Assembly (NCBI GenBank): GCA_022450155.1
Contig: JAKUQR010000012.1
Span: 1-64,000 of the forward strand
DNA: 64,000 nucleotides
Reading direction: 5' to 3'
From: Gammaproteobacteria bacterium
GTDB lineage: Bacteria; Pseudomonadota; Gammaproteobacteria; Arenicellales; UBA868
Both the position numbers and the translations under genes were made by a program. A model generated the notes under the pieces. The model was not told the origin of the DNA, searched no databases, and saw only the letters and a list, made by a program, of their open reading frames with translations. This document shows, piece by piece, positions 5,319-27,776 of the stretch (the stretch's first letter is position 1; the number at the start of each line of letters is the position of its first letter).

Positions 5319-5436
5319 GATCAGGGTTCCAGTGGACGCTTGGAGCTGCAGCGATTACTTATACCAGCACCCGGCTGATTTCTCTACAGGACGCAGGAAG
5401 ACCAGTTGCCCAAAGCGCATCTGCTATGCTGTGCCA

Positions 5437-6597: not shown

Positions 6598-6815
6598 TCT
6601 TGTACGTGCCAACTGTTTGAGTGAGTCACGGGACATTCCGAGCAAGGCTGACGACCCGCACCATCCATAACGTCTTGCCTAAACGGCCCGGGTCCGGTCG
6701 GCTTCTGGGGCTGACTTAATTCTAGCTCGACGTCGGAGACCTGCGTGGGTGGTAGACTTTGCAGCAGCATCCTGATGCTGTGTTGAGCCGCTGGTCGAAT
6801 AAATTCGAAACGATA
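6598..6815. other. Intergenic region before the acyl-CoA dehydrogenase pair
   Basis: 218 bp with no convincing gene. It contains a short hairpin (CAGCAT, 4-base loop, ATGCTG at 6765-6780). A start at 6759 for the downstream gene would place this hairpin inside the coding sequence and add 19 atypical residues, so it is treated as non-coding. No clear promoter was identified. Confidence 0.4.
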
Positions 6816-7991: not shown

Positions 7992-8014
7992 ACTGAGCAT
8001 CAAGGACGATACTC

Positions 8015-9154: not shown

Positions 9155-9162
9155 GAGGCTCC

Positions 9163-10834: not shown

Positions 10835-10848
10835 CTGGAGGCAGCATC

Positions 10849-12054: not shown

Positions 12055-13025
12055 AAGCACTGTACTGCCGGGCCTTCGGACCTGAGACCGACCTTACTGT
12101 TGAAGAGATAGCGGCGCCTGTCCCGGCCGTTGGTGAAGTTCTGGTGTTGGTACAGGCGGCGGGTCTTAATTTTCCCGATCTTCTGTGTGTGCGCGGCGAA
12201 TACCAGTTCAAGCCGCCGCTGCCGTTTGTACCGGGCAGTGAGGGCGCAGGTGTTGTGACGGCACTGGGAGCAGATGTGACAGGTGTGTCGGTCGACGACC
12301 GTGTCTGTTTCAACGCGTCGAGCGGTGCGTTTGCCGAGGTGATCGCGATCCCGGCCTCTGCGGTGACACAAATCCCCGACAGTATGCCTTTTGAGCAGGC
12401 CGCAGGATTGACCGTCGTGTACGGCACCTCCTATTACGCGCTCAAGCAGCGTGCGGGTCTTCAGTCCGGCGAGACACTGCTGGTTCTGGGAGCAGCGGGC
12501 GGTGTGGGATTGTCCGCTGTCGAACTGGGTGCCGCGATGGGTGCCCGGGTGATCGCAGCGGCCAGCAGCGACCAAAAGCTGGCCGTTGCCGCTGAGCACG
12601 GCGCAGAAGTCGGCATTAATTACGCAACCGAAGATCTCAAAAACCGGATCAAGGAGATCACCGAAGGGGCCGGAGCGAACGTGATCTACGATCCGGTCGG
12701 CGGGGAGCTGGCAGAAGCTGCATTCCGGGGTATCGCCTGGGAAGGTCGACACCTGGTGATTGGATTTGCTTCGGGGCCCATTCCCAAGCTGCCGCTGAAT
12801 CTGCCGCTGTTAAAAGGCGCTGCCGTCGTGGGTGTGTTCTGGGGCTCCTGGACCAAGCGTGAGCCCGAAGCACACGAACAGAACATGGCAGAACTGTTTG
12901 AGTTGTTCACTGAAGGTACGATTCAGCCACATGTCTCGAGCACTTATACGCTGGATCAGTTTCTCGATGCTTTTGGCGAGGTATCGGGGCGCCGGGCGAT
13001 CGGCAAGGTTATTCTGACACCTTGA
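12051..13025 (+). CDS. MDR-family NADPH:quinone reductase-like oxidoreductase
   Basis: 324 aa starting at GTG, overlapping the thiolase stop as GTGA. It has a GroES-like N-terminal domain ([18 protein letters not shown]) and a Rossmann domain with [17 protein letters not shown] near 142-158. The Cys/His zinc ligands of alcohol dehydrogenases are missing, which places it in the quinone-reductase branch of the medium-chain family. Such enzymes also reduce enoyl-CoA or alpha,beta-unsaturated ketones. Tight coupling with thiolase suggests a shared pathway. It is the last of the CoA genes before the second Rieske oxygenase. Confidence 0.9.
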
Positions 13026-13066: not shown

Positions 13067-14197
13067 ATGAGTCACGAGGTCAAACAGGGTCTACCCAACC
13101 GGTACTATGACAACCGGGACGACTTTCTGGTTGAGCGGGCGAAAATTTTCTCACCCATGTGGGTGTGTATCGGGTTCGCCAGTGATGTGTCCGGCCCCGG
13201 CGATGTATTTCCGCTTGAATTCATGGAACTGCCGCTGCTGCTGGTGCGCGATCACGATCACCGAGTACGGGTTTTTCATAACGTCTGCCGCCACCGGGGC
13301 CATCTACTGGTTGCCGAACCTGGGCAGCTGGGCCGTTCTCTACGCTGCCCGTATCACTCGTGGACTTACGCATTGGACGGTTCACTGATCCGAACGCCGA
13401 ATATTGGTGGCGCGGGCGTACACCAAGTTGAAGGTTTTGATCGTGCGGGTTTGGGGCTGGTACAGATCCGCTGTGCGTTATGGCATGACCTCATATTTAT
13501 CAACCTGGACGGGTCGGCCGGTCCGTTTGATGAATTTATCGAGCCACTGGAAAATCGTTGGTCAAAACTCTGGGGCAAAACCGGCGCGGACCATCTGCGG
13601 GTCCCTGAAGACTACGGTTCGATCGCATTTGATCTGGCGACCAACTGGAAGCTTGCGGTGGAAAACTATCTTGACGCCTATCACCTGCCCACCGTACACC
13701 CGGAATTAAACCGCGTATCGCCGCTGCAGGATCACGAGATCCATATCTCGGAGCAATTTGCCGGTCAGGTATCCCACTGCTATCAACTTGGTGCTGGCAG
13801 CCAAGATCACCTTCCGATTTTCCCGAATTGGTCATCTAAACTTCTCCAAGAGGCGGATTACCCCGCTCTATTTCCAAACACACTGCTCGGCCTGCAGGCA
13901 GACCACCTGTTTGTGATGGTGGTCATCCCGCTGGAATATGGTCGTACCCGCGAGGAGACCCGTCTGTACTGTGTGGGGGATGAATCGTTGACGGAACGAT
14001 TCCGGACCCTGCGACACGACCAGCATGCATTCTGGACGCGCGTGTTTCAGGAGGATGTCAGTGCGGTGATGGGCATGCAAAAAGGCAGGGCATCGCCTGG
14101 ATTTGATGGGGGTGTGCTGTCGCCTTTAATGGATCGTGCCACGGTTGCTTTTCATGAATGGGCCGGTGTCCGCTTGGGTGTCTGGCCTACCGGCTGA
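13067..14197 (+). CDS. Rieske non-heme iron oxygenase, alpha subunit (2)
   Basis: 376 aa. Rieske ligands are C74-x-H76 and C94-xx-H97. The mononuclear iron site is H206 and H211 in YLDAYHLPTVH, with the canonical bridging D203, so this is a more typical ring-hydroxylating-type alpha subunit than the other two in the window. It follows the MDR gene by 41 bp on the same strand and may hydroxylate the same compound that the upstream CoA genes degrade. No ferredoxin or reductase gene is nearby. The substrate cannot be read from sequence. Confidence 0.9.
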   Translation: MSHEVKQGLPNRYYDNRDDFLVERAKIFSPMWVCIGFASDVSGPGDVFPLEFMELPLLLVRDHDHRVRVFHNVCRHRGHLLVAEPGQLGRSLRCPYHSWTYALDGSLIRTPNIGGAGVHQVEGFDRAGLGLVQIRCALWHDLIFINLDGSAGPFDEFIEPLENRWSKLWGKTGADHLRVPEDYGSIAFDLATNWKLAVENYLDAYHLPTVHPELNRVSPLQDHEIHISEQFAGQVSHCYQLGAGSQDHLPIFPNWSSKLLQEADYPALFPNTLLGLQADHLFVMVVIPLEYGRTREETRLYCVGDESLTERFRTLRHDQHAFWTRVFQEDVSAVMGMQKGRASPGFDGGVLSPLMDRATVAFHEWAGVRLGVWPTG

Positions 14198-14953: not shown

Positions 14954-15382
14954 TCAGGTATTCGTTTTTCTGGGTGTCGGTGGCGTCACGGTCACCGTGA
15001 TACCACCGTTTGTCGGACGGCGGGACAGGCCGGCCTGGTTCAGTCGGGCTAAATATGCCTGCCAGGATGTGTCGTAGTTCTGCCCCAGTTCGTACAGAGT
15101 TTCCCATGAGTAGATACCGGTGTTGTGGCCGTCATCAAAATACAATCTGACGGCATACGAGCCTTGGGGTTCGATTTGGTCGATGCCCACATGTTCCTTG
15201 CCGTGTTGGAGTACCTCCTGGCCCGGGCCATGGCCCCGGACTTCTGCAGAAGGCGAAAATACCCGTAGATATTCACACGAGAGGTCGAAGTGACTGCCGT
15301 CATCAAAATCCACCGCCAGTACACGGGATTGCTTGTGCAGAAGAATGTTTGTTGGACGCGGATGTTTACCCATGCTACGCAA
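14954..15382 (-). CDS. DUF971 protein (gamma-butyrobetaine-hydroxylase-like N-terminal domain)
   Basis: 142 aa; the more family-like start is the second Met (15373), giving MGKHPRPTNILLHK. The body matches DUF971: LHKQSRVLAVDFDDG, LSCEYLRVFSPSAEVRGHGPGQ, YAVRLYFDDGHNTGIYSWETLYELG. In eukaryotes this domain precedes the catalytic part of gamma-butyrobetaine hydroxylase and can bind zinc; stand-alone bacterial versions have no settled function. It heads away from the small alpha/beta-barrel gene at 15512, sharing a 129-bp intergenic region. A short Thr/Pro-rich basic tail follows the domain. Confidence 0.85.
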   Translation of the reverse strand: MRSMGKHPRPTNILLHKQSRVLAVDFDDGSHFDLSCEYLRVFSPSAEVRGHGPGQEVLQHGKEHVGIDQIEPQGSYAVRLYFDDGHNTGIYSWETLYELGQNYDTSWQAYLARLNQAGLSRRPTNGGITVTVTPPTPRKTNT

Positions 15383-15511: not shown

Positions 15512-15823
15512 ATGGCAGCTTACCTGATTGTTCGTGCAGTGGTACCGGAAGCGGAGCGCGAAAAATTCGACCAGTGGTATCAGGATGTTCACCTGCCGGA
15601 CGCCCTGGCTGCGTTTCATGCCGTAAGCGCATGGCGCGGCTGGAGTGATGATGATCCGGCGGTTCATTTCGCTTTTTATGAGTTTCCAACCTTGGATGAG
15701 GCAAAGTCTGTTGGAGATTCCGATGCCATGAAGACCATGCGGGCTGATTTCGATCAAAACTGGCAGGATCGGGTTGCCAGAACCCGTGAATACGTCGAGG
15801 TTGCCCAGTCGATTTCAAGATGA
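15512..15823 (+). CDS. Small dimeric alpha/beta-barrel protein (EthD/DUF-like)
   Basis: 103 aa from the ATG at 15512, which has GGAG at the right distance (7 bases); a GTG two codons earlier overlaps that site. The protein opens AAYLIVRAVVPEAEREKFDQWYQDVHLPDAL, a pattern of ferredoxin-like proteins that dimerise into a barrel, with a conserved Trp-Tyr and His-Leu-Pro after strand 1. Such proteins include EthD and small isomerases or monooxygenases. It precedes a 3-hydroxyacyl-CoA dehydrogenase by 99 bp, as the DUF1330 protein does near 63 kb. Biochemical role unknown. Confidence 0.75.
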   Translation: MAAYLIVRAVVPEAEREKFDQWYQDVHLPDALAAFHAVSAWRGWSDDDPAVHFAFYEFPTLDEAKSVGDSDAMKTMRADFDQNWQDRVARTREYVEVAQSISR

Positions 15824-15922
15824 AGTGGCCTCCAAGACGCGGGCTGTGAACCGACACCCGACCGGGTGATGTTGCGTTCGAGTTCACGCAGTCGTTAAAC
15901 CCAATTCGAGGAGTGAGTGTCG

Positions 15923-16837
15923 ATGAATACGATCAAGCCACAAGATGTCCGGCAAGTTGCCTGTGTGGGTGCCGGAACAATCGGTTCCGGGTGGGCAGCT
16001 TATTTTTTGTCACGAGGGATGGAAGTTATCGCGTCCGACCCTGCGCCAGATGCTGAAACACGGTTACGGACCAACATCGACGATGCCTGGCCAAAACTCG
16101 AACGGCTTGGACTTTCACCAGGCGCCAGTCGCGACCGACTGCGTTTTGTCGAAGATATTGAGCGAGCGGTTGCAGATGCTGACTTCATTCAGGAAAGCGC
16201 ACCTGATGATGAGGCGCTGAAAATCGAACTGATCGGGCAGATTGATGCGGCCTGTCGTTCCGATGTGGTGATCGCCAGTTCATCATCCAAGTTTCTGCCC
16301 AGTAGAGTGGCTTCCGGTTGCAACCGCCCGGAACGCGTCATTGTCGGGCATCCATTCGTTCCCGCCTACCTGGTGCCACTGGTCGAGGTCGTGGGCAGCG
16401 CCTCTACGCCTGCAGAGATTCTCGATTGGGCGGTGGACTTTTATCGGTTGGTGGGTAAGCGGCCGCTGAAACTCAAAAAAGAAATCGAGGCCTATATTGC
16501 AAATCGACTGCAGCATGCCATTTATCTCGAGGCACTGAGTCTGGTGGAACAGGGCATATGCGACTATGCCGATATCGATGATGCGGTGACCTGGGGTCCG
16601 GGGCTGCGCTGGGCGGTGCAGGGGCCTGTTCTGCACCGTCACCTGGGCGGCGGCAAGGGCGGGGTGAGACATATGATCGACCACTTTGGGTGGAACGGCG
16701 TACCCGGGGGCGAAGTGGCATTTATCGATGCGGTCGAGCGTCGATGGGGACACGTATCCATCGCCGAACTGGAAAGCTGGCGCGATGACAATCTACTGGC
16801 CATTCTAGAGGGGGTGACACCCCCGCCCCGACAATGA
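15923..16837 (+). CDS. 3-hydroxyacyl-CoA dehydrogenase family (L-carnitine-dehydrogenase-like)
   Basis: 304 aa from the ATG at 15923, 9 bases after a GAGGAG ribosome site. The NAD loop is GAGTIGSG at 16-23. The catalytic dyad His-Glu is visible as H143 in GHPFVPAYLVPLVEVV and E155. The usual Asn of HxFNP is replaced by Val. The GHPF...LVPLVEV pattern and overall layout resemble L-carnitine dehydrogenases more than FadB-type enzymes. It would oxidise a 3-hydroxy acid or its CoA ester with NAD+. The 27-bp gap to the deacetylase-like gene supports one transcript. Confidence 0.88.
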   Translation: MNTIKPQDVRQVACVGAGTIGSGWAAYFLSRGMEVIASDPAPDAETRLRTNIDDAWPKLERLGLSPGASRDRLRFVEDIERAVADADFIQESAPDDEALKIELIGQIDAACRSDVVIASSSSKFLPSRVASGCNRPERVIVGHPFVPAYLVPLVEVVGSASTPAEILDWAVDFYRLVGKRPLKLKKEIEAYIANRLQHAIYLEALSLVEQGICDYADIDDAVTWGPGLRWAVQGPVLHRHLGGGKGGVRHMIDHFGWNGVPGGEVAFIDAVERRWGHVSIAELESWRDDNLLAILEGVTPPPRQ

Positions 16838-16864
16838 CCGCCCGGGTTCTGCAGCAACACAGTT

Positions 16865-17749
16865 GTGTCTGATCTGATGAGTGACGGCACAATCCAAGCG
16901 TTCAGCTGGCCGGAAGGCGCCCGGCTTGCGCTTTCCATTGTGGTCAACGTTGAGGAGGGTGCAGAGCGTTCGGTTGCTGATGGTGATTCAGGTCCGGAGC
17001 CGGTCGATGAACTGGGTATCGCGCTGAAAGGTGAGGTCCGAAATTTTTCCAACGAAAGCAACTACCGCTATGGCATCCAGCGCGGCGCGCCGCGGGTACT
17101 GGATATGCTCCGGCTATACGGGGTGCCAGCGACGTTCACCTGTGCTGCCCTGAGCCTGGAGCGGGCGCCGCAGCTTGCCCGGCAGATCGTTGACGAGGGT
17201 CATGAGATCTGCGCGCACGGCTGGCGCTGGACCTATCAGCACCGGATGTCTGAGGAAGACGAACGCGTCTTTATCGAAAAAGCCAGTGACTCCATTCTCG
17301 ACAGTTGCGGCCAGCGACCGGCTGGCTGGCTGTCCCGTTACCTGACATCAGCGAATACCGCCCGCCTGCTTGCCGAGGCTGGCTTTTTCTATCACATGGA
17401 CGACTACTCCGACGACCAGCCTTTCTGGCAACGTCAGGGTGACACATCGATCCTCGTTCTACCCTACGCTGTGGACACCAACGACATGAAGTTATGGACC
17501 ACGCCGGCGTACAGCCCGTCGGACTGGTTGCAGTATGCCGTCGATACCTTTGACTGTTTGTATGAAGAGGGCCGGACCCAGCCTCGGATGATGTCACTGG
17601 GACTTCACCTGCGTGTGATCGGACGGCCGGGCCGCATCGGTGCGCTTAAAGAGTTTCTTGAACACGTCAGGTCGCAACAGGCGGTCTGGTTCGCCCGGCG
17701 GATCGATATTGCCAAATGGTGGTCAGAACATCACCCGTTGAGCAACTAG
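16865..17749 (+). CDS. PuuE/allantoinase-type polysaccharide-deacetylase family protein
   Basis: 294 aa from GTG 16865 (an ATG four codons on is an alternative; neither has a clear ribosome site). Features of the PuuE-like branch of the NodB superfamily: NVEEG at 28-32 in place of TFDDG, YRYGIQRGAPRVLDML near 67-82, EICAHGWRW at 114-122 with metal-binding H118, and LGLHLRVIGRPGR near the C-terminus. This branch hydrolyses small ring amides or N-acyl compounds (allantoin, for example) rather than polysaccharides. Sitting in a run with an amidase and a CoA ligase, it may open or deacylate a nitrogen compound. Substrate unknown. There is no signal peptide, so it acts in the cytoplasm. Confidence 0.85.
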   Translation: MSDLMSDGTIQAFSWPEGARLALSIVVNVEEGAERSVADGDSGPEPVDELGIALKGEVRNFSNESNYRYGIQRGAPRVLDMLRLYGVPATFTCAALSLERAPQLARQIVDEGHEICAHGWRWTYQHRMSEEDERVFIEKASDSILDSCGQRPAGWLSRYLTSANTARLLAEAGFFYHMDDYSDDQPFWQRQGDTSILVLPYAVDTNDMKLWTTPAYSPSDWLQYAVDTFDCLYEEGRTQPRMMSLGLHLRVIGRPGRIGALKEFLEHVRSQQAVWFARRIDIAKWWSEHHPLSN

Positions 17750-17751
17750 CT

Positions 17752-19125
17752 ATGGACAGTATCGATACGATCGCACGACACGTGACCCAGACCAGGTTTG
17801 TGGATCTTCCTGACGATGCTGTTGAAGCGACCTGCAAATTCATCCTGGATACGCTGGGGGTAGGTATCTTCGGCAGCAGCGGTCCTTGGGTCGAGGAGTT
17901 GATCTCGGCACAGGGTGGTCCACCGACCAGTGGGGTGGCCCGTGTGTTTGCCAGACCAGTGACGCTCGGCGCTGCGTCGGCTGCGCTGTGTAATGCCTAC
18001 CAGATGCACAACTCCGAGTTCGACTGTGTGCACGAAGGTGCAGTGGTGCATGCCGTGACGTGCCCCCTGGCGGTAGCTCTGGCCGAGGTCGATCGCCAGA
18101 ACATTGATGCGGGCAGACCCGTGACCGGCCAGCAACTTATCCGCGCTATTGCGCTGGGTGTGGATGTCGCCTGTCATTTAGGTGTCGCCAGTACCAGTGC
18201 CCTTAAGTTTTTCCGACCCGGGACCTGCGGCGCATTTGGTGCGACGGCGGCACTCGCGGTATTGCGCGGCTTTGATACGGCCTGCCTGGTCAGTGCGTTC
18301 GGCATCGTACACGCCCAGTTGTGCGGCACCATGCAGGCACATACGGAGGGCTCTCCTTTGCTCGGTATGCAGATGGGATTTAATGCGCGTAATGCCGTGT
18401 TGGCCTGTGATCTGGCTGAGCGAGGTGTGCCTGGGCCGCGCGATGTTCTGGAAGGCCCTTTCGGTTATTTTGCTCTGTTTGAATCGAGCCACGATTTGGC
18501 GAGCGTTCTGCCCCAATTGGGTCAGCAGTGGCGAATCACGGAGATGGCCCACAAACCGTTTCCCAGTGGCCGTGCGACACACGGAATTGTCGACGGCTGC
18601 ATGACACTGCGCCGCACACACGATATCCTCCCTGAGGCCATCACCCGGGTCAGCGCTCGAGTACCCCCGCTGATTCATCACCTGGTGGGCCGGCCGTGTC
18701 TAGCGGACATGGACATCAACTACGCCCAGCTTTGTGCTCAGTTCGCGGCCGCCCGGATTCTGATTGCCGGAGACCTGGTGACTGAGGATTTCACAGCCAC
18801 TGGCCGCAGTGATCCCGATACGCTTACGCTGGCCGATAAAGTCCAGATTATTGTCGATGACAACCCCGATCCCAACGCGTTAACGCCGGTGACAGTCGAT
18901 ATTGAAACGCACGGCGGGGCTCATCATGAGATAGCTGTCGACACGGTGTACGGTCATCCCGATAATCCGATGACGCGGCAAGACTGGTTGAAGAAATTCC
19001 GGAGTAACTGGCAACACGCAGCCGTTGCGCTGGGTGAGGATGCCCGTGAACGCGTCATTGAACAGGTGGACAATCTACCGGCTGTTGTCGATACGGCGCG
19101 GATCATCGATGACCTGCTACCGTGA
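17752..19125 (+). CDS. MmgE/PrpD family protein
   Basis: 457 aa from the ATG at 17752, 2 bp after the preceding stop; an upstream start would overlap that gene and give a non-family N-terminus. It has the PrpD all-helical first domain (ATCKFILDTLGVGIFGSSG; YQMHNSEFDCVHEGAVVHA) and the smaller alpha/beta second domain (KPFPSGRATHGIVDG near 273-287). Family members dehydrate 2-methylcitrate, isomerise or decarboxylate related acids (itaconate), or have unknown roles. The end overlaps the next gene's GTG by 4 bp (GTGA), implying translational coupling. Confidence 0.9.
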   Translation: MDSIDTIARHVTQTRFVDLPDDAVEATCKFILDTLGVGIFGSSGPWVEELISAQGGPPTSGVARVFARPVTLGAASAALCNAYQMHNSEFDCVHEGAVVHAVTCPLAVALAEVDRQNIDAGRPVTGQQLIRAIALGVDVACHLGVASTSALKFFRPGTCGAFGATAALAVLRGFDTACLVSAFGIVHAQLCGTMQAHTEGSPLLGMQMGFNARNAVLACDLAERGVPGPRDVLEGPFGYFALFESSHDLASVLPQLGQQWRITEMAHKPFPSGRATHGIVDGCMTLRRTHDILPEAITRVSARVPPLIHHLVGRPCLADMDINYAQLCAQFAAARILIAGDLVTEDFTATGRSDPDTLTLADKVQIIVDDNPDPNALTPVTVDIETHGGAHHEIAVDTVYGHPDNPMTRQDWLKKFRSNWQHAAVALGEDARERVIEQVDNLPAVVDTARIIDDLLP

Positions 19126-20495
19126 GCCGTTATTTCACACAGGCTGATTTTCCCGAACTGAACAGGGCGTTTCCCATCGGCGACGCTTTCCTGTCGGGTC
19201 CTGCACAATTCGATCCTGAACGATTGCGGGCTTTGCAGGAGGATCGCTTTTCCCGTGTCGTTGCGCGCGCCTGGCAAATCCCTTTCTATCGTCGGCACTG
19301 GGGCGGGGCAGGCGCGGAACCGGGTGATATTACAAGCCTGGATGATCTCGAGCGATTACCGGTCGTGACCAAAGACCACCTGATGGCCAGTGTTGAAGCA
19401 GTGCCGCCCTATGGGGATTATCACGGCATGACCCGTGCCGACGGCGGGCGCTATCGCACGGTTCTGCAGACCACCAGTGGAACCACTGGCGTGCCTCAAC
19501 CGCTTTTCTTCGGTGCCCGCGACCGGGAAATCCAGAATATTCTTCTCGCCCGTGCCTACCTGCTGCAGGGTCTGAAACCGAACGATGTGGTGCACTCCAT
19601 TTATGGTTTTGGCATGGTCAACGGCGGTCACTATATTCGCGAAGCGATTCTTCACCATACCGATGCCCTGCTGCTGTCAGCCGGTACGGGCACCGAAACA
19701 CGCAGCCGTCAGCAGGTTGAATTGATGCATCGATTCGGCGCGACTGTGCTGGTGGGATTTGCTGATTACATGCTGAGGCTGGCCCAGGCAGCGCGCGACA
19801 CCGGGCTGGCGCCCGGCACGGATATTCCACTGCGGATGATTTCCGGGCACCTGGATCATGATGCCCGCGAGACATTGTCGGGTGCCTGGGGCGGTGCGTC
19901 GGTTTACGACTGGTATGGTGTGGGCGATACGGGGATCATCGCTGCAGAAGGACCTTGTCAGGAGGGTCTTTACGTCTGGGAAGATGCGCACTTTCTTGAG
20001 ATCGTGGCGCCCGAGTCGGGCAAGCCGGTCGCCCCTGGCGAACCCGGCAACATCTGCGTGACGGTGCTTTTTAAGGACACGGTCTACCCCATCATACGTT
20101 TCGACACCCAGGACGTGTCCAGCCTTTTGCCGCCCGATCCGACCAGTGGCATCAACTTTCAGCGCATCACCGGTTTTTCCGGCCGCAGTGACAATATGGT
20201 CAAGCTGCGCGGTGTCAACGTTTATCCAACCGCCATTGGCAAATTGCTGCATGAAATTGAAGGCACCACCGGTGAATACATCTGTCGATTGCATACCTCG
20301 AATGATCAGGACGAACTCACCGTGATCGTTGAATATGTCGGTAGCGATCCCGGATTTAAGGATACATTGGCGCAGTCGCTAAGAGAACAACTGGGTGTCA
20401 GGTTGGGCATAGAACTTGCAGGCAAGGGTGAGACGGCTGCCTTAACCGGGCTGGAAGATCGGCAGAAACCCCGACGGCTGATTGATGACCGCTGA
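19122..20495 (+). CDS. PaaK-type phenylacetate-CoA ligase family enzyme
   Basis: 457 aa from GTG, the length of PaaK. The adenylate-forming P-loop is TTSGTTGVP at about 117-125; YDWYGVGDTGIIAAEG holds the A5-like motif; RFDTQDVSSLLP and GRSDNMVKLRGVNVYP are the A7/A8 region; the C-terminal domain ends QKPRRLIDDR. PaaK enzymes activate aryl or arylacetic acids with ATP and CoA; several relatives activate anthranilate or other heteroaromatic acids. It should make the CoA thioester for this operon. Overlaps: 4 bp with the MmgE gene and 11 bp with the amidase ATG. Confidence 0.9.
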   Translation: MSRYFTQADFPELNRAFPIGDAFLSGPAQFDPERLRALQEDRFSRVVARAWQIPFYRRHWGGAGAEPGDITSLDDLERLPVVTKDHLMASVEAVPPYGDYHGMTRADGGRYRTVLQTTSGTTGVPQPLFFGARDREIQNILLARAYLLQGLKPNDVVHSIYGFGMVNGGHYIREAILHHTDALLLSAGTGTETRSRQQVELMHRFGATVLVGFADYMLRLAQAARDTGLAPGTDIPLRMISGHLDHDARETLSGAWGGASVYDWYGVGDTGIIAAEGPCQEGLYVWEDAHFLEIVAPESGKPVAPGEPGNICVTVLFKDTVYPIIRFDTQDVSSLLPPDPTSGINFQRITGFSGRSDNMVKLRGVNVYPTAIGKLLHEIEGTTGEYICRLHTSNDQDELTVIVEYVGSDPGFKDTLAQSLREQLGVRLGIELAGKGETAALTGLEDRQKPRRLIDDR

Positions 20496-21792
20496 CGTTC
20501 TGCCGACTCTGCCACTGACTGAAGTATCTGAACTTCTGATTCAGCGTAAGGCCAGTCCGGTTGAACTGACCCAGGCCTGTCTGGACCGGATCGAGTCAGC
20601 TAACGGTCAAGTGAACGCGCTGGTGTTTGTCGATCCGGAAACTGCGATTGCGCAAGCGGCTGAAGCGCAACAACGCTATGCTCTTCGGCAACCACTGGGT
20701 CTGCTCGATGGCCTGCCAATCGTGGTTAAAGACAACATTGCTGTCAGCGGCTGGCCTATGACCAATGGCCTGGCGGTCCAGCATACCTCCAGTGCAGATG
20801 CCGATATCGTGAGTCGCCTGCGTCGGCAGGGCGTGGTGATGCTCGGCAGCGCCAATATGGACGAAGGTGCGTTGGCTGCCGCTGGCGTTAATCCCCATCA
20901 TGGCCGCATCATGAACCCGGATTTTCCAGGCTATGCAAGCGGCGGCTCCAGTAGTGGGTCGGCGGCTGCGGTCGCCGCCGGTTTCTGCTGTGCAGCGCTC
21001 GGTACGGATACCCTGGGTTCGGTCCGGTTGCCGGCAGCGTACTGCGGCCTGGTCGGATTCAAGCCAAGTCATGGGCGTCTGTCGACCACCGGCATCATTT
21101 CTCTGCTGCCCGAGCTGGATGCAGTCGGACCCATCACCCGGTCGGTCGCCGATGTTGTCTACCTGATGACTCAGCTTGAGGGGTGGACCGTGTCGGTCGA
21201 GCAGCTTCCACTGGGTCATTTGCGCTGGGGCGTGCCCGATAGTTTCAGTGGGGAAGAACTTGATGTGGATGTCCAGGTGCCGTTTGAGTCGGCGCTTGCG
21301 GGTCTGTCTGCTGTCGTGCGCCCGCAGCCAGTCGCACTTCGCCATTGGGACCCCGGGACACTGCGGCGTTCGGGACTGTTACTGGCAGAACATCATGCGG
21401 CCTGCCACTGGACCGATCCGGCCAGCGCTTATTCGGCACGACTGAGATCGATGCTGCAGTATGGGCGTGAAGCGAGCGCCGATCGGTTGGCCAGGGCGCA
21501 AAGCTGCGTCCGTGAAAGTAAATCGGACCTGCTCGCGTCCTTCACCGAAGTCGATGTGATCCTGATGCCGACGACCCCCCAGACGGCGTTTGACAGTGAT
21601 ACGGCGGTGCCCGTCAATCAGGCCGATTACACAGCACTGGCCAACGCCGCTGGTTGCCCGTCGATTTCTATCCCCTGCCTGACGCCGGCGGCGGGCCGCC
21701 CGGCTGGACTGCAGCTGATGAGCGCGCCGGGCAGTGACGAGAAATTGTTGGCATGGGCTTTACAGGTCGAGCGCTTGTTGGCAGATTGTTAA
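20485..21792 (+). CDS. Amidase (amidase signature family)
   Basis: 435 aa from the ATG at 20485, which overlaps the ligase end by 11 bp. The Ser-cisSer-Lys triad is visible: K82 in VVKDN, the Gly/Ser loop GGSSSGSA at 153-160 with the cis-Ser, and nucleophile S179 in DTLGSVRLPAAYCG. A short linker and a C-terminal half with TPQTAF and GLQLM follow. The enzyme hydrolyses an amide to acid and ammonia. Being in frame-coupled order after the ligase, it probably releases nitrogen from the same substrate. Substrate specificity cannot be inferred. Confidence 0.92.
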   Translation: MTADVLPTLPLTEVSELLIQRKASPVELTQACLDRIESANGQVNALVFVDPETAIAQAAEAQQRYALRQPLGLLDGLPIVVKDNIAVSGWPMTNGLAVQHTSSADADIVSRLRRQGVVMLGSANMDEGALAAAGVNPHHGRIMNPDFPGYASGGSSSGSAAAVAAGFCCAALGTDTLGSVRLPAAYCGLVGFKPSHGRLSTTGIISLLPELDAVGPITRSVADVVYLMTQLEGWTVSVEQLPLGHLRWGVPDSFSGEELDVDVQVPFESALAGLSAVVRPQPVALRHWDPGTLRRSGLLLAEHHAACHWTDPASAYSARLRSMLQYGREASADRLARAQSCVRESKSDLLASFTEVDVILMPTTPQTAFDSDTAVPVNQADYTALANAAGCPSISIPCLTPAAGRPAGLQLMSAPGSDEKLLAWALQVERLLADC

Positions 21793-21859
21793 GTGACTGG
21801 CAGGGTCGGATAGGTCTTTCTGCTAAACTGCCACCGACCTCATCCCCGGGGAATTACCC

Positions 21860-22774
21860 ATGGCAGCAGACCCGAACGAACAACGGCATTCGCAGACGCT
21901 GTTCAGTCAACGTGCCCGTTACCACAGCAGTGAGAACAATTTCGAATTTTCCTGGCCGGCAGTACCGGCACACCAGTTCGTTGAAGAACGCGACCGCGCG
22001 CTGGCTGAGCACACTCCGACGGGGCTGATACCGCTGGATCTGGGGGATGTACTGGGTCTTGATTATCCCGCCACCACGCCAACCCTGCTCACGCGTTACG
22101 CCAAGATCTGTGCCGGGGAGGCGTTATCGGTTTCGTTCAAGGCGGCAGGTGCCGTGTATTACGTTATTCGGGGTCAGGGCTGTTCAACGCAGGATAACGA
22201 CACGATTGAGTGGGGCGAAGGAGATCTCTTTTGTTTTCCCGGTGCCGGCAAGACCGTTCACCGGGCAGGCGGTCGTGACAGTCTTCTGTTCCTGGCGACC
22301 AACGAACCTCTGCTCAGTATTGACCGCCTGAGTCCGCCGCCACCGGCCGAGGCTGTGGTCGAGGCTGTGCACTGGCCGGCAGACGAGATCACACGGCAGT
22401 TTGAGCCGGTACTGAGGCGGCCGATTACCGAAACTACCTCCGGTCACGCGGTACTGTTTTCGAGCACTGCCCAAGGCGGGAGTACCAATATCCTGCCCAC
22501 AGTGAACTGTGCGGTGAACACGTTGGAGAGCGGTAAGGACCAGCGTCCTCATCGCCACAACGGTGTCGCGGTCACCTTGTGCATCCGCGGTCAGGGTGTT
22601 TACTCGCAGATCGATGATCAGCGGGTCGACTGGATCGATTGTGGTGTACAGATCACACCGCCCGCAGCGCTTCATTCCCATCACAATCGTGGTCCGGAGC
22701 GGATGGAATGCCTGATCTTCCAGGACGAAGCGCTCCACTATTACACCCGTACACCGGGCTTCAGCTGGACCTGA
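21860..22774 (+). CDS. Gentisate-dioxygenase-like bicupin
   Basis: 304 aa with two cupin domains. The first is at about 85-155 (VYYVIRGQGCSTQDNDTIEWGEGDLFCFPG), where the metal-binding His residues look lost. The second is at about 225-290, PHRHNGVAVTLCIRGQGVYSQI, keeping H-x-H and a later HSHHN. This layout resembles gentisate and 1-hydroxy-2-naphthoate 1,2-dioxygenases, which cleave hydroxylated rings with Fe(II). Ring cleavage of a compound handled by the adjacent ligase and amidase is plausible. It starts 67 bp after the amidase. Confidence 0.82.
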   Translation: MAADPNEQRHSQTLFSQRARYHSSENNFEFSWPAVPAHQFVEERDRALAEHTPTGLIPLDLGDVLGLDYPATTPTLLTRYAKICAGEALSVSFKAAGAVYYVIRGQGCSTQDNDTIEWGEGDLFCFPGAGKTVHRAGGRDSLLFLATNEPLLSIDRLSPPPPAEAVVEAVHWPADEITRQFEPVLRRPITETTSGHAVLFSSTAQGGSTNILPTVNCAVNTLESGKDQRPHRHNGVAVTLCIRGQGVYSQIDDQRVDWIDCGVQITPPAALHSHHNRGPERMECLIFQDEALHYYTRTPGFSWT

Positions 22775-22787
22775 TCTGCAGTCTGCC

Positions 22788-24008
22788 GTGAGTGTGCTGG
22801 CACCTTCCCTGCGGCGGGATGCCCAAGTCATGGGCCTGGTCGGTCTGGCCCATGCTTCCAGCCATTTTTTCCATCTGGTTCTGCCGCCACTGTTCCCGAT
22901 ACTCAAGCAGGAGTTCGATGTCAGTTATGCGCAGCTCGGCCTTTTGCCGGGACTGTTTTTCGCAGCATCGGGTGTGATGCAGATTATCAGTGGCTTTCTG
23001 GTGGATCAGTTTGGGGCGCGTCGCGTGCTGTTGGCTGGGTTGGCGTTGCTGTCGATCAGCATGCTGCTGTGCGGGCTGGTGTCAGAGTTCTGGATGTTGA
23101 TTCCCCTCGCTGTGGTTGGCGGCGTCGGCAACAGTGTTTTCCATCCGGCCGATCTCGCCATCCTGACCGATAAGGTCAGCCGGCCCCGTCTCGGCCGAGC
23201 CTATGGTATCCATGCGCTGTCGGGCAATATAGGCTGGGCAGCTGCGCCGGTGTTCATCATGACGGCGGTACAGTTCAGCGACTGGCGAACCGCACTGGTG
23301 CTGGCCGGTTGCGTCGGTTTTGCCGTGTTGCTGGTGCTGCTCTTGTCCGGTAGAGAGCTGGTCGAGTCAGCACGGCATGCTGTCAGTACGAGGCGTCCAG
23401 AAGGCACTGCGGGTGACAACGTCCGGATGCTGCTGTCACCCACAGTGGTGTCCTGTTTTCTTTACTTTACTTTTCTTTCTACCGCCCTGATCGGGATTCA
23501 GACGTTCGGCGTCACAGCGATGGTTCAGATCTATTCGGTGCCATTAACACTGGCGACCGCTGGGTTGACTTTGTTTCTTGTGGCGTCAGGTGTCGGTGTG
23601 GTTTGCGGCGGTTTTGCCGCTGACTGGACTGATCGGCATGATGTCATCGCCATGTCGGGTATGACGATCGGTGCGATGGTCTTTTTTGTGATCGGTTCTG
23701 GTTCGATTTCACCCTCAGTGTTGATTCCTGCGCTCATCATCGCCGGGTTTGTTGCCGGGACTACCACGCCGTCGCGCGATATGCTGGTGCGCAAGGTGAC
23801 GCCGGAGGGCGCATCCGGCCGGGTTTTTGGATTTGTTTACTCCGGGCTCGATCTCGGGTCCTGCGTTATTCCGCTGGTTCTGGGCTGGGTGCTTGACCAT
23901 GGATCAGCGCCCGTGGTTTTCTATATCATCGCGAGTATGCTGCTGGTGACCGTGCTGACCGTGGTCAATGTGCGCCGTTACGTACCGGTCCGGCGTCAGC
24001 CTGTCTGA
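22788..24008 (+). CDS. Major facilitator superfamily transporter (1)
   Basis: 406 aa starting at GTG 13 bp after the bicupin. About twelve hydrophobic segments can be traced. After segment 2 a G-x-x-x-D-(R/K)-x-G-R-like loop appears as LVDQFGARRVLLAG; ADWTDRHDVI is the matching loop of the second half. The start HASSHFFHLVLPPLFPILKQEFDVSY is typical of small-molecule MFS carriers annotated as oxalate/formate or fosmidomycin-type. It is probably the uptake system of this operon, or an exporter of an intermediate. Confidence 0.9.
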   Translation: MSVLAPSLRRDAQVMGLVGLAHASSHFFHLVLPPLFPILKQEFDVSYAQLGLLPGLFFAASGVMQIISGFLVDQFGARRVLLAGLALLSISMLLCGLVSEFWMLIPLAVVGGVGNSVFHPADLAILTDKVSRPRLGRAYGIHALSGNIGWAAAPVFIMTAVQFSDWRTALVLAGCVGFAVLLVLLLSGRELVESARHAVSTRRPEGTAGDNVRMLLSPTVVSCFLYFTFLSTALIGIQTFGVTAMVQIYSVPLTLATAGLTLFLVASGVGVVCGGFAADWTDRHDVIAMSGMTIGAMVFFVIGSGSISPSVLIPALIIAGFVAGTTTPSRDMLVRKVTPEGASGRVFGFVYSGLDLGSCVIPLVLGWVLDHGSAPVVFYIIASMLLVTVLTVVNVRRYVPVRRQPV

Positions 24009-24051: not shown

Positions 24052-25155
24052 ATGGTGCAATACCGACTTACAGAGCTCACAAAGTCACTGCCGGCAACGG
24101 TACCGTTTGTGGGGCCGGAAACGCAGGAACGGGCCCGCGGTGGACCATTTGACGCCCGGATCGGTGCAAACGAAAGTGTCTTCGGACCGTCTCCGGGGGT
24201 GGTAGCTGCTATTGCCGAAGCGGCCAGCAGTGCCTGGATGTATGGTGACCCGGAAAATCACGTGCTTTGCCAGGCGATCGCAGCTCAGCACGGGGTGGAG
24301 CCTGGCAACATCATGGTGGGAGAAGGGATCGATGCTCTGCTGGGTTACGTTGTGCGCATGTTTGTAGAACCAGGTGATTCGGTGGTGACCTCGCAGGGTG
24401 CTTACCCGACCTTCAACTACCATGTCGTCGGTTACGACGGTCAACTGGTAACCGTACCTTACCGTGATGATCGGGAGGATGTGGATGCCTTGCTGGCAGC
24501 GGCCGCTGAGTGTCAGGCCAAGCTGATCTATCTGGCAAATCCGGACAATCCGATGGGTACCTGGTCGTGCGCCGAGAAGATAGACGACATGATTTCGAGG
24601 GTGCCCGCGGGTGCGTTGCTGGTACTGGACGAAGCCTATGGCGAATTTGCCGAACCGGGGACGCTGCCGGAGATCGATGTGTCCAGTGACCGGGTGCTAC
24701 GCTTCCGAACTTTCTCAAAAGCCTACGGGCTGGCGGGGATCCGTTTGGGCTATGTTGTCGGGAACTCGGAGCTGGTGGCCGAGTTCAACAAGGTCCGAAA
24801 TCATTTCGGTGTCGGCCGGGTTGTTCAGGCGGCTGGCCTTGCTGCACTGGCGGACCAGTCTCATCTCGATCGGGTGATTGATCAGGTCAAGGCAGCGCGA
24901 CGTCGAATCGTTGAGATCGCGTCAGACAACGGGCTGGCGACTGTCGACTCGGCCACAAACTTTGTGGCTGTGGATTGTGGCCGCGATGGAGAATTCGCGA
25001 CCCGCGTATTGAACAGTCTGGTTGAACGCGGTATTTTTGTCCGGATGCCAGGTGTGCCACCGCTAAACCGCTGTATTCGCATCACGGCCGGGCTCGATCA
25101 CGAATTGGATGCGTTTGCGGCGGCACTGCCGCTGTCACTTGTCGACGCTAACTGA
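24052..25155 (+). CDS. PLP-dependent aminotransferase, histidinol-phosphate-aminotransferase-like
   Basis: 367 aa, fold type I class II. It has MVGEGIDALLGY for phosphate binding (88-99), NPDNPMGT at 163-170, DEAY at 193-196, and the PLP lysine K223 in FSKAYGLAGIRLGY. The sequence is HisC-like, but the gene is not in a his operon; such stand-alone copies act on aromatic or other amino acids or in biosynthesis. A ribosome site AGGGG lies 6 bases upstream. The 43-bp gap after the MFS gene suggests, but does not prove, membership in the upstream operon. Confidence 0.88.
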   Translation: MVQYRLTELTKSLPATVPFVGPETQERARGGPFDARIGANESVFGPSPGVVAAIAEAASSAWMYGDPENHVLCQAIAAQHGVEPGNIMVGEGIDALLGYVVRMFVEPGDSVVTSQGAYPTFNYHVVGYDGQLVTVPYRDDREDVDALLAAAAECQAKLIYLANPDNPMGTWSCAEKIDDMISRVPAGALLVLDEAYGEFAEPGTLPEIDVSSDRVLRFRTFSKAYGLAGIRLGYVVGNSELVAEFNKVRNHFGVGRVVQAAGLAALADQSHLDRVIDQVKAARRRIVEIASDNGLATVDSATNFVAVDCGRDGEFATRVLNSLVERGIFVRMPGVPPLNRCIRITAGLDHELDAFAAALPLSLVDAN

Positions 25156-25182: not shown

Positions 25183-25923
25183 CTAGAGCAATGACCGAAG
25201 GACCAGTCCCGCACCGAGTAGCACGAGCAGGCCCAGCACTGCCCGGCGGAAACTGCTCTGAGACAGCCTGCGGCGGATCGGTATCCCAAGTTTCAGTCCC
25301 ACCAACATTGCCACTAGCCCGACAAACGATATCTGTGTGGTGTCGACGGTGAAAAGACCCAGCCAGGCCAGACCGATGGCAAACACAACGCTTGAAATCG
25401 TAAACGAGATGTTGATTGCCTGAATGAAAACGTTCCGCTCGAGCGGCAGCGACAACAGGTACGGCAATACCGGCATCACCTGCGAACCGGTGACACCGTT
25501 AACCAGCCCCGTTGTGAAACCGACCGGTATTTCAAGACGCCTGGCGAGCGCTGTGGGCAGTCTGAATGCTGGTTGAGTGATGGTAATCACACCGTAAATG
25601 ATCAGCACCAGGCCGAGTATTGCCGAAGAGATGGTCGGGTCGAGCCACATCAGCAGGGCCAGTCCTATGAAGATTCCTACCGGTGCCGCTGCATACATCA
25701 GTCGAAACTGTATCAGCGTCGCTCGAAAATGCCCGGCATCACGCATCACAATCAGGTTACTGACGACCGAAGGCACAATCAGCAGCGGCAGTGCCTCTTT
25801 CAAGCCGATGGCATAGACGAGAAACGACAGTGCGGTCGTGGCAAATCCAAGACCGGTGGTGCCTTTGACCAGCCCGGCGAACAAAAATGCACCACATACA
25901 ACCAGAATGTCTCCGTTCTCCAA
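25183..25923 (-). CDS. TauE/SafE-family membrane permease
   Basis: 246 aa with eight or so hydrophobic helices and the family signatures AGLVKGTTGLGFATTALSFLVYAIG near 17-41 and VGFTTGLVNGVTGSQVMPVLPYL in the second half. Members export sulfite, sulfoacetate or other small anions, a role mostly inferred from genome context. It converges on the aminotransferase and is divergent from the DUF885 gene. No sulfonate-degrading gene is seen in the window, so the transported anion is open. Confidence 0.88.
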   Translation of the reverse strand: MENGDILVVCGAFLFAGLVKGTTGLGFATTALSFLVYAIGLKEALPLLIVPSVVSNLIVMRDAGHFRATLIQFRLMYAAAPVGIFIGLALLMWLDPTISSAILGLVLIIYGVITITQPAFRLPTALARRLEIPVGFTTGLVNGVTGSQVMPVLPYLLSLPLERNVFIQAINISFTISSVVFAIGLAWLGLFTVDTTQISFVGLVAMLVGLKLGIPIRRRLSQSSFRRAVLGLLVLLGAGLVLRSLL

Positions 25924-26099
25924 TTTTTTGTTTTTCCGGATGTGGCGGTGATCAGACAGGATCTACCCCCAGGGAAGAGGATTTGAGTGTAGGCAATAAC
26001 CGTTGGGATGCCCAGCGTGTCAGACTGTCACTCAATGGCGGTGCGTATTGTCTTGAAGGATCGAATCGCGATGTTCCAGTACACGATAGAAGATCATCG

Positions 26100-27776
26100 G
26101 TGCCGGTGACCAATAATATTTTTTTACTTGCTGATCGTTATGTTGATCAGCTCGCAGCACTCCAGCCAATGCTCGCCACTCAAATGGGGGTACCCGGATT
26201 TGATGGACAATGGGGCGTACAGGATCCGTCGGGGTGGCAGGACATCGGGGCACTGTTCAAGCGTACCCTGTCGGCGATCGAGGCGCTGCCACCATCGGAT
26301 CGACATCGGGAGCAACTCGGCCGCCGGGTACTGAAAGACCATCTCAGTGGTCGGGTGGAACGCATTGAGCACGGTCACCCGCTGCAGGATCTGAACAACA
26401 TCGCCTCGCCGGTGCAGGGGTTCAGGGAGACTTTTGACCTGATGCCGAAGGTCAGCGCCGATGACTGGGAATTGATTGCCAGCCGACTCAGTAGCCTGCA
26501 CGGGGCAGTAGACGGCTATATAGAGAGTCTCTCTGAAGGTCGTAGACGCGGACTTGCCGCAGCTCGGCGTCAGGTCGAGGCTTGTATCGAGCAGTGCCGG
26601 GTCAATTCAGGCTCGGGTTCTTTCTTTTATCAGCTCTCGGCGGGGGCCCATGATGCGCAGGTGCCCGACGCCCTGCAGGCTGAGGTCGACACGGGAGCCG
26701 CGGCTGCCCGCTTGGCATATGCGCACCTAGCGAATTACCTTGAGGATGAGTATCTACCCGACAGTGTCGAGGCTGATGGGGTAGGTCTTGAACGTTACCG
26801 CAGAGCCAGTCGTCACTTTCTGCTTACTGAGATCGACCATGAAGCGGTCTACCACTGGGCGTGGCAGGAAGTCGCTGCCTTACGGGCGCAGATGGTGGAA
26901 GTTGGTCGGCAAATCGATCCGGCGCTTGGCTTTCAGGAGATCGTGCAACTGCTGAAGACAGGCGCTGACTATGTCGTGAGCTCAGAAGCTGAATTTCTCA
27001 GCCAAATGCGGCAATGTCAGATGGATGCCCTGGATCAGCTGGACGGTACGGTGTTCGACGTTCCTGTACCGATCAAGCAGATTGATGTGCAGATCGCACC
27101 GCCCGGCACTACGCTTGGGGCCTACTACATTCAGCCGTCGGAGGATTTTTCCCGTGCCGGCAGCGTCTGGTATGCAAAGCTCACCGATACCAGCGTCTAC
27201 CCGTTGTTTGACGAGGTGACCACCGCGTATCACGAAGGTTTCCCCGGACACCATCTGCAGATCGGTGTGCAGATGTGCTTGGGCGATGAATTGACCCGCG
27301 CTCATCGGCTCGCCATATGGTACGACGGCTATGGTGAAGGCTGGGCACTGTACGCCGAAAGACTGATGGACGAACTGGGATTTATCAATCGTCCGGAATA
27401 CCGCTTTGGGCTGTTGTGCAGCCAACTGATGCGCGCTTGCCGGGTGGTGATTGACATTGGCATGCACCTAGGAATGATCATACCCAAAGATGCGGTTTTC
27501 CATTCGGGTGACATCTGGACGTTTGATCTGGCCGTCGAGATGCTGCGGGACTATGGTCTGATGTCGCCAGTGGGTGCTCGCTCCGAAGTAACACGTTATC
27601 TGGGATGGCCGGCCCAGGCAATCTCCTACAAAGTAGGCGAACAGTTTATCTTGGACCTGCGTGCTCAAGCCGAACATGAGGCATGGTTTACGCTCAAGGA
27701 GTTTCATCGACGTATACTTGTTTCCGGTCCGGTTGGACTCGATCATCTCAAAGAACTGATCCTTGGCCAGGAATAG
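26100..27776 (+). CDS. DUF885 putative zinc peptidase-like protein
   Basis: About 558 aa from GTG 26100 (GTG 26106 equally possible); the frame stays open upstream to 25887, but residues encoded there look non-family. The domain begins at NNIFLLADRYVDQLAAL. The metallopeptidase-like motif HEGFPGHH (H378, E379, H383, H384) and a downstream GYGEGWALYAE (E413, E420) match the zinc site of DUF885 proteins. The lack of a signal peptide with this start suggests a cytoplasmic enzyme; many relatives are secreted lipoproteins. Peptidase activity is inferred from the motif. It may share a transcript with the downstream HlyU gene. Confidence 0.85.
   Translation: MPVTNNIFLLADRYVDQLAALQPMLATQMGVPGFDGQWGVQDPSGWQDIGALFKRTLSAIEALPPSDRHREQLGRRVLKDHLSGRVERIEHGHPLQDLNNIASPVQGFRETFDLMPKVSADDWELIASRLSSLHGAVDGYIESLSEGRRRGLAAARRQVEACIEQCRVNSGSGSFFYQLSAGAHDAQVPDALQAEVDTGAAAARLAYAHLANYLEDEYLPDSVEADGVGLERYRRASRHFLLTEIDHEAVYHWAWQEVAALRAQMVEVGRQIDPALGFQEIVQLLKTGADYVVSSEAEFLSQMRQCQMDALDQLDGTVFDVPVPIKQIDVQIAPPGTTLGAYYIQPSEDFSRAGSVWYAKLTDTSVYPLFDEVTTAYHEGFPGHHLQIGVQMCLGDELTRAHRLAIWYDGYGEGWALYAERLMDELGFINRPEYRFGLLCSQLMRACRVVIDIGMHLGMIIPKDAVFHSGDIWTFDLAVEMLRDYGLMSPVGARSEVTRYLGWPAQAISYKVGEQFILDLRAQAEHEAWFTLKEFHRRILVSGPVGLDHLKELILGQE

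Follow-up and report, generated by a model that had tools for sequence, protein, structure and literature searches.

A proteobacterial four-gene core of a PuuE-type hydrolase, an MmgE/PrpD protein, a CoA ligase and an amidase, and its possible role in cyclic imide breakdown

According to the sections of the reports drawn on here, HxnM of Aspergillus nidulans is a deacetylase-fold cyclic imide hydrolase that opens 3-hydroxypiperidine-2,6-dione, after which the amidase HxnN converts the opened glutarimide to a dicarboxylate (PMC9304392); the MmgE/PrpD protein of a pseudomonad itaconate cluster is an (S)-(R)-methylsuccinate isomerase (PMC12290011, 2025); and PuuE is an allantoinase that does not depend on a metal and is similar to the NodB-fold deacetylases (PMC10967932). 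For the isomerase, docking yielded six carboxyl-coordinating residues, numbered as in the Pseudomonas aeruginosa enzyme and stated to be conserved in the family (His88, Glu91, His102, His152, Lys202, and Lys266), and an MmgE/PrpD homologue is present in 19.2% of GTDB species (PMC12290011). Here, we analyze a 64,000-nucleotide (nt) stretch of DNA, hereafter the window (positions 1 to 64,000 of contig JAKUQR010000012.1), from a gammaproteobacterium whose 3.2-Mb genome is in 77 contigs. It contains a run of nine genes that includes those for a PuuE-type cyclic amidohydrolase, an MmgE/PrpD protein, a PaaK-type acyl-CoA ligase, and an amidase (Table 1). The open-licence literature searched yielded neither a bacterial gene set that connects the opening of imides with CoA metabolism nor a named pathway with this set of genes; an earlier interpretation made from the DNA letters alone (the sequence-only reading) had likewise known of no such pathway.

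The conserved unit within this run is a four-gene core consisting of the PuuE-type gene, the ligase, the amidase, and the window-type MmgE/PrpD gene, whose subfamily we name MmgA, with MmgB used for a second subfamily. Loci carrying a relative of the ligase were taken from a scan of one genome per species, and the counts below lean to close relatives because the best 80 of 170 relatives were used. The clustering of open reading frames holds antisense artefacts, and counts are given for clusters tied to window genes or with representatives checked by family search. Among the 80 loci, the amidase was found in 66, the PuuE type in 47, and MmgA in 46, followed by MmgB (42), CaiB (38), GntR (31, its identity read from the sequence), acyl-CoA dehydrogenase (29), crotonase (28), the acetyl-CoA hydrolase C-terminal family (25), MaoC (20), GAF (15), and CitE (11), with the cupin and the aminotransferase of the window in 3 each and its carnitine-dehydrogenase-like gene in 2. 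The amidase immediately follows the ligase in 56 of the 76 loci with room for it, and the ligase is immediately preceded by MmgA or MmgB in 45 of 75. A yardstick search, in which window genes had to be matched over at least half their length and the four closest relatives (L040 to L043, the window's own group, counted within the 80) were omitted, gave a similar order: the amidase in 63 of 76 loci, MmgE in 52, PuuE in 48, two window acyl-CoA dehydrogenases in 26 each, a short-chain dehydrogenase/reductase (SDR) in 12, an enolase-superfamily gene in 6, and the aminotransferase and TauE in 1 each. The cupin, the carnitine-dehydrogenase-like gene, the window-type major facilitator superfamily (MFS) transporter, the barrel protein, and the remaining queried window genes were found in 0 of these 76 loci, and the view that the eight genes of the sequence-only reading form one conserved pathway is not supported. 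The hydrolase, MmgE, ligase, and amidase co-recur in records titled Alpha-, Beta-, and Gammaproteobacteria, and the culturable environmental species with a relative of the ligase include Kaistia adipata and Vineibacter terrae. Other features of the ligase loci include the GAF protein, a single-domain protein of about 200 amino acids (aa) that adjoins the PuuE-type gene in 14 of its 15 loci (the exception is L105), and an aconitase/isopropylmalate-isomerase-like large subunit in 5 of the 80 (L065, L083, L111, L118, and L119), accompanied by a small subunit (Pfam-checked in L118); such subunits would suit the hydration of substituted maleates. The plasmid neighbourhoods examined indicated no substrate.

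A second set of loci was selected by MmgE rather than by the ligase, from two overlapping samples, 274 genomes for the class and 398 for the phylum, each of which includes the window's genome. Strong matches were found in 8 genomes besides the window's own (E 2.0e-87 or better, 39-44% identity), and all others were at 33% identity or below, leaving a gap beneath the strong set. Of the 38 genomes with weaker matches, 32 served as controls (the six weakest were omitted), chosen by the weakness of the match and not by catalytic residues. A ligase at 51-55% identity lies near MmgA in 5 of the 8 loci compared with 0 of 32 controls (Fisher 8.5e-5), and the amidase in 4 of 8 compared with 0 of 32 (Fisher 7.7e-4). 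With the relatives' PuuE-type proteins as queries (E 1e-40), matches were likewise obtained in 4 of 8 MmgA loci and 0 of 32 controls, as for the acetyl-CoA hydrolase family (4 of 8 and 0 of 32), and CaiB (cluster 6) was present in 5 of 8 and 6 of 32. Five of the control loci (L142, L160, L165, L166, and L167) have a PuuE-like deacetylase-family match at 26-29% identity that starts within ~2.3 kb of the MmgE/PrpD match, and the pairing of PuuE-like and MmgE proteins may thus be wider than the four-gene core.

The residues of MmgA set it apart from the methylsuccinate isomerase. Both domains of the family are present in the window protein (PF03972, 5.8e-47; PF19305, 2.9e-28), and the equivalents of the six carboxyl-coordinating residues, assigned by our own alignment and by residue spacing (3, 11, 54, 50, and 64 in the window protein vs 3, 11, 50, 50, and 64 in the isomerase), are H98, E101, H112, F166, L216, and K280. 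Among sequences longer than 380 aa (46 MmgA and 41 MmgB; a second alignment took those longer than 330 aa), MmgA retains four of the six, namely H98 (46/46), E101 (46/46), H112 (44/46), and K280 (46/46), with His152 replaced by Phe in 45 of 46 (the other is an X) and Lys202 by Leu in all 46. MmgB keeps both His152 and Lys202 in 41 of 41 and usually has Asn in place of His88 (32 of 41), and an MmgE encoded on contig 1 of the host has the six-residue set with Asp for Glu91. The same two-residue loss is seen in the MmgE near a PuuE-type gene in Tistrella and in one Roseomonas MmgE, and it is shared by a Variovorax MmgE beside a distant PuuE-type gene, which has Val at the Lys site and Phe for His88. 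The loss of His152 and Lys202 suggests that the substrate of MmgA would have one of its carboxyl groups masked, most simply as an amide. The best PDB relative of the window MmgE is cis-aconitate decarboxylase (5.7e-26), an identity that was rejected, as key residues differ at aligned positions. No Lys stands opposite the ACOD1 lysine that we take to be Lys207, the residue there being Pro214 in one alignment and Leu216 in our own. Leu323 aligns with a Tyr that is variable among PDB entries (Tyr318), and Phe166 aligns with the histidine that the section drawn on of PMC7347537 names His159.

The PuuE-type enzyme, for its part, is related to PuuE but distinct from it. Its best PDB match is PuuE allantoinase (3cl6, E 2.8e-71; 3qbu matches at 3.4e-18), and the PuuE motifs NxEEG, HGxRW, PYxxDxNDM, and GxHxRxxGRP are kept in the alignment to 3cl6, at positions where conservation extends to 45-46 of 46 relatives and a true PuuE of the host has the same residues. 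Against the allantoinase model TIGR03212, the window protein scores 268.3 bits (267.7 in the genome search), short of the cut-off of 424.6, and a second host protein, encoded on contig 15 and 45% identical to it, passes with 530. We reject the identification of the window enzyme as the allantoinase because it falls under this cut-off and another host gene is over it. Of the 100 positions that 43 or more of 46 relatives conserve, it equals the true PuuE of the host at 70 and differs at 30. A sugar deacetylase appears improbable from the sequences and was set aside, with the PuuE motifs kept and the neighbours being amide and acyl-CoA enzymes.

The other core enzymes are placed here at the level of their families, in agreement with the family-level names of the sequence-only reading, which match the Pfam and NCBIfam results. 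The ligase scores 166.7 bits against PaaK (TIGR02155), about a quarter of the cut-off of 646.3, and contains an SGTTG loop (S119-G123) in 81 of 81 sequences and a C-terminal lysine, K449, in 80 of 81, to which we presumably may assign the role that such a lysine has in AMP-forming ligases. Membership of the amidase in the amidase-signature family is shown by its PF01425 match together with Ser156, Ser157, and Ser180, present in 70 of 70 aligned sequences, and Lys83, present in the window protein; we take this Ser-Ser-Lys set to be the catalytic residues. Genes that could carry the products further lie outside the window's run: no CoA transferase, RipB-like hydratase, RipC-like lyase, or acyl-CoA dehydrogenase is found beside MmgE there. 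CitE, MaoC, acyl-CoA dehydrogenase, and CaiB occur together in 8 of the 80 ligase loci, and the best NCBIfam relatives of the representatives include RipB and RipC of the itaconate pathway and dicarboxylate CoA transferases, each match scoring under its cut-off. In the host, contig 1 carries an operon of an M20 amidohydrolase, the six-residue MmgE, a RipB-like MaoC, an acyl-CoA dehydrogenase, and CaiB (positions 6589-12346 of the locus at contig 147000-166999), of which the last three are 67%, 71%, and 57% identical, respectively, to genes of the relatives' clusters, and contig 6 carries a CitE-like lyase at 50%. We infer that these contig 1 and contig 6 genes serve the same pathway as the core.

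From the genes, the conservation of the core, and the residue changes, all of which are established, we propose, with confidence that stops a little short of even, that the run is an operon for catabolism whose widespread core of four enzymes opens cyclic imides, frees their nitrogen, and feeds their carbon to central metabolism; every reaction, the reaction order, and the substrate class are conjectural. The substrates would be dicarboximides, such as substituted succinimides, maleimides, or glutarimides, a class that would appear to suit the combination of PuuE type, amidase, and MmgE better than an aromatic acid does. The PuuE-type enzyme would cut one C-N bond of the imide ring to give a half-amide, with one carboxylate and one carboxamide, and MmgA would then epimerise the half-amide at the carbon adjoining the carboxyl group. 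A half-amide fits this step because the two lost residues are docking-assigned carboxyl ligands and a neutral amide replaces one carboxylate. The amidase would hydrolyse the amide to ammonia and a branched dicarboxylate, and the ligase, acting before or after it, would form the CoA thioester. Dehydrogenation, hydration, and C-C cleavage by an acyl-CoA dehydrogenase, a MaoC hydratase, and a CitE-type lyase would follow as in the breakdown of methylsuccinate and itaconate; likely genes for these steps share the cluster with the core in some relatives and are found on separate contigs in the host. The dehydrogenase-like gene, cupin, aminotransferase, barrel protein, and MFS transporter would have been added in this lineage, perhaps for synthesis or import of the imide.

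Several results weigh against this proposal. The PuuE type, ligase, amidase, and any MmgE are found together in only 25 of the 80 ligase loci, and of the 22 loci having both the PuuE type and MmgA, 12 have them side by side, many of the contigs being short. Among the loci selected by MmgE, a close PuuE relative (56-57% identical to the window's) is present in only 2 of 8 vs 0 of 32 controls (Fisher 0.036), two more MmgA loci have a PuuE match at 27%, in the range of the 26-29% seen in 7 of 32 controls, and the ligase was not found in the fetched stretch of 3 of the 8; moreover, 8 of the 32 controls also match some relative of MmgA at E 1e-40. MmgA could be a non-catalytic partner, or pseudo-enzyme, of MmgB. 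The RipB- and RipC-like genes score below the NCBIfam cut-offs. Finally, the substrate is possibly a cyclic ureide, as PuuE itself opens a hydantoin, and M20 enzymes of the allantoate-amidohydrolase type are encoded in the host contig 1 operon and in a Tistrella ligase cluster, which could point to N-carbamoyl products.

Among the alternatives, the one that fares best, though we consider it unlikely, is that the core forms one pathway and that the dehydrogenase, cupin, aminotransferase, and barrel protein serve another and are merely co-transcribed. Among the 80 ligase loci, these additions are confined to close relatives, bar one distant match to the aminotransferase, and homologues of the cupin (37-72% identity) sit in other gene neighbourhoods, including some within the same bacterial family. 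However, another genus of the family shows the same gene order from the Rieske oxygenase to the DUF885 gene, with the proteins 51-80% identical, and retention of the full order across two genera at this level suggests joint selection. The amidase is the least conserved member in the other genus, at 51%, and the locus there has one or two extra genes between the barrel protein and the dehydrogenase, one crotonase-like by clustering and the other of 134 aa. The crotonase-like gene, in L042 and L043, occupies the position of the 93-nt gap between these two genes in the window and has perhaps disappeared from the lineage of the window. In a further genome that is assigned to a different genus of the family (contig JASMBC010000050.1), the cluster is at 87-97% identity, as compared with 51-80% in the other-genus locus, possibly through transfer or misbinning. 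Of the additions, the aminotransferase passes the cut-off of PRK08153 (NF006014; 583.7 vs 510 bits), and the carnitine-dehydrogenase-like protein does not reach that of NF005471 (306.4 vs 414). The barrel protein has no Pfam or NCBIfam match at E 0.001 and no significant match in the PDB (best E 0.028, a putative antibiotic biosynthesis monooxygenase), and its model is of low confidence (predicted local distance difference test score, pLDDT, 61.5).

Breakdown of a ureide, such as a hydantoin or dihydropyrimidine, has rather poor prospects. The PuuE-type enzyme would yield an N-carbamoyl acid, an M20 enzyme would decarbamoylate it, and the aminotransferase would deaminate the product. That PuuE is an allantoinase whose motifs the window enzyme keeps speaks for this route, as do the M20 protein of host contig 1, which is over the cut-off of the 'allantoate amidohydrolase' subfamily (661.8 vs 452), and the presence of an M20 gene in the Tistrella ligase cluster and, in pieces, beside a Neorhizobium cupin homologue. 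Among the 80 ligase loci, however, relatives of the host M20 were found only in L052 and L064, and the window's cluster has none; a true PuuE is already encoded elsewhere in the host, and the amidase-signature amidase and the CoA ligase would seem superfluous to the route.

Conversion of an N-heteroaromatic acid to an aryl-CoA, followed by hydroxylation and gentisate-type cleavage by the cupin, is the idea of the sequence-only reading, and we consider it improbable. It draws on the PaaK-type ligase, a nearby Rieske oxygenase, and a bicupin distantly like gentisate and 5-aminosalicylate dioxygenases. The residues H231, H233, H272, and H274 of its C-terminal cupin are of the metal-binding kind and invariant in 11 aligned sequences, and local PDB matches align this half to either half of gentisate dioxygenases. 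Nevertheless, the ligase is far below its family cut-off, and so is the cupin, with 38.4 bits against gentisate 1,2-dioxygenase (TIGR02272, cut-off 442.1) and 71.6 against the 5-aminosalicylate dioxygenase model (cut-off 650), and its absence from all 76 other ligase loci tells against the cupin as the key ring-cleaving enzyme. Aromatic ring cleavage as the core reaction was set aside on this gene distribution and on the family scores; the nitrogen-ring compound, C-N hydrolysis, and CoA activation of the same idea are retained in our proposal, in keeping with the recurrence of the core. A role of the cupin in ring cleavage in this lineage is possible from its sequence. A model of the cupin predicted from 4 sequences (pLDDT 40.4) was too poor for a fold search. 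In L027 and L032, its homologues (67%, and 52-72% in two frames) lie near genes reading like class III aminotransferases and nitrile hydratase subunits. The breakdown of citrazinate or isonicotinate, a special imide case with the ligase acting first in a pathway that runs through 2,6-dioxopiperidine-carboxyl-CoA, is very improbable: its glutarimide intermediate would require an imide hydrolase, an amidase, and a CoA ligase, and a gene reading from its sequence like a molybdenum hydroxylase (cluster c206) lies near the ligase, but in only 3 of the 80 loci, no such hydroxylase is seen among the genes of the window's run, and methylsuccinate-type enzymes would not be expected. Homarine degradation was also considered, and the open-licence literature search gave nothing usable.

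Returning to the proposal of a cyclic imide operon, an extension that we regard as speculative and unlikely in its full form is that the core represents a bacterial route of general use for dicarboximides that has so far gone undescribed. Half-amide epimerisation, as a new MmgE/PrpD activity made possible by the loss of two carboxylate ligands, would link imide opening to the methylsuccinate/itaconate pathway, and the natural substrates could be methyl-substituted maleimides and hematinic acid. These compounds remain after the oxidation of chlorophyll or haem, and the ring-opened hematinic triacid is a one-carbon homologue of the PrpD product 2-methyl-cis-aconitate; more broadly, cyclic imides arise from oxidised pyrroles, drugs, and agrochemicals. 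On the degradation of tetrapyrroles and hematinic acid, the open-licence literature yielded chemistry and taphonomy and no bacterial gene set. If the proposal of a cyclic imide operon holds, with or without this extension, a function open to testing is assigned to a recurrent four-gene module of Proteobacteria, a subfamily whose new type of substrate can be predicted is added to the MmgE/PrpD family, and a route of nitrogen recovery from refractory organic matter becomes testable.

As for the run itself, the eight genes of the sequence-only reading are all present on one strand and tightly packed, and it missed a ninth, the aminotransferase, which starts 43 nt after the MFS gene and belongs to the same run. 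Its start for the first gene, at 15512, is an in-frame ATG, two codons after the GTG start adopted here. The overlaps that it noted between MmgE, ligase, and amidase are present (4 nt for MmgE/ligase and 14 nt for ligase/amidase), a further one of 34 nt joins PuuE and MmgE if the earliest MmgE start is used, and the remaining gaps across the nine genes are 13-93 nt. The nine genes are probably co-transcribed, a conclusion drawn from spacing and conservation because the scans hardly exceed shuffled sequence for promoter-like (6 vs a mean of 3.6, standard deviation 2.1) and terminator-like sites (10 vs 8.9, standard deviation 2.8). Upstream, at 5317-13025, lies a run of Rieske oxygenase, two acyl-CoA dehydrogenase, SDR, thioesterase, thiolase, and quinone-oxidoreductase-like genes, which may form an acyl-CoA pathway of their own. 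The nearest named relatives by ligase, at 94-95% identity, are metagenome-assembled genomes titled Arenicellales, Acidiferrobacteraceae, and Gammaproteobacteria, and relatives' genome names such as REDSEA suggest a marine host.

Table 1. Genes of the run and its borders, in positions of the window
Feature	Position	Strand	Basis and place
Rieske-type oxygenase alpha subunit	13067-14197	+	PF00355/PF00848; upstream, conserved neighbourhood, outside the tight run; 71% in other-genus relative
GBBH-like N-terminal (DUF971) protein	14954-15382	-	PF06155 3e-30; divergent, bounds the run
Small alpha/beta-barrel-like protein, 105 aa	15506-15823	+	GTG start; local add-on
L-carnitine-dehydrogenase-like protein, 3-hydroxyacyl-CoA-dehydrogenase superfamily	15917-16837	+	PF02737/PF00725; local add-on
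PuuE-type cyclic amidohydrolase, proposed cyclic imide hydrolase	16865-17749	+	TIGR03212 below cut-off, PDB 3cl6; core
MmgE/PrpD protein (MmgA), proposed half-amide epimerase	17716-19125	+	PF03972 + PF19305; core
PaaK-type AMP-forming acyl-CoA ligase	19122-20495	+	PF00501 + PF14535; core
Amidase-signature amidase, proposed half-amidase	20482-21792	+	PF01425 2.1e-88; core
Bicupin	21860-22774	+	PF07883; His set in C-terminal cupin; local add-on
MFS transporter, proposed importer	22788-24008	+	PF07690 2.6e-46; local add-on
Pyridoxal-phosphate aminotransferase (PRK08153), ninth gene	24052-25155	+	NF006014 583.7 bits; local add-on
TauE/SafE permease	25183-25923	-	PF01925; convergent, ends the run
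DUF885 protein	25887-27776		Kept next to the cluster in relatives

Several components of the locus can be set beside known systems. The ligase shares its superfamily, the SGTTG loop, and the C-terminal lysine with PaaK phenylacetate-CoA ligase and 2-hydroxyisobutyryl-CoA synthetase, but it has only about a quarter of the PaaK cut-off score. The cupin shares the bicupin arrangement and the His-x-His...His set with gentisate and 5-aminosalicylate 1,2-dioxygenases, but its matches to them are short, local, and well below the cut-offs. The PuuE-type enzyme belongs to the family of PuuE allantoinase (3cl6, TIGR03212) and agrees with it at 70 of the 100 subfamily-conserved positions, yet it is below the family cut-off in a host that has a separate true PuuE. 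The pseudomonad itaconate/methylsuccinate cluster likewise combines an MmgE/PrpD isomerase with an acyl-CoA dehydrogenase, a CoA transferase, a hydratase, and a lyase; no PuuE-type enzyme, PaaK-type ligase, or amidase is among the genes named in the sections of that report drawn on here, its main text contains neither the term 'amidase' nor the term 'CoA ligase', and the window MmgE differs from its isomerase by the loss of two of six residues (PMC12290011). The HxnM/HxnN pair of nicotinate breakdown is fungal, no CoA ligase or MmgE is described with it in the sections of the report drawn on, and HpPgdA (3qbu) is given as the closest known structural homologue of HxnM, whereas for the window enzyme PuuE is the closest; what the pair shares with the route proposed here is the sequence of a deacetylase-fold imide hydrolase followed by an amidase, yielding a dicarboxylate and ammonia (PMC9304392).

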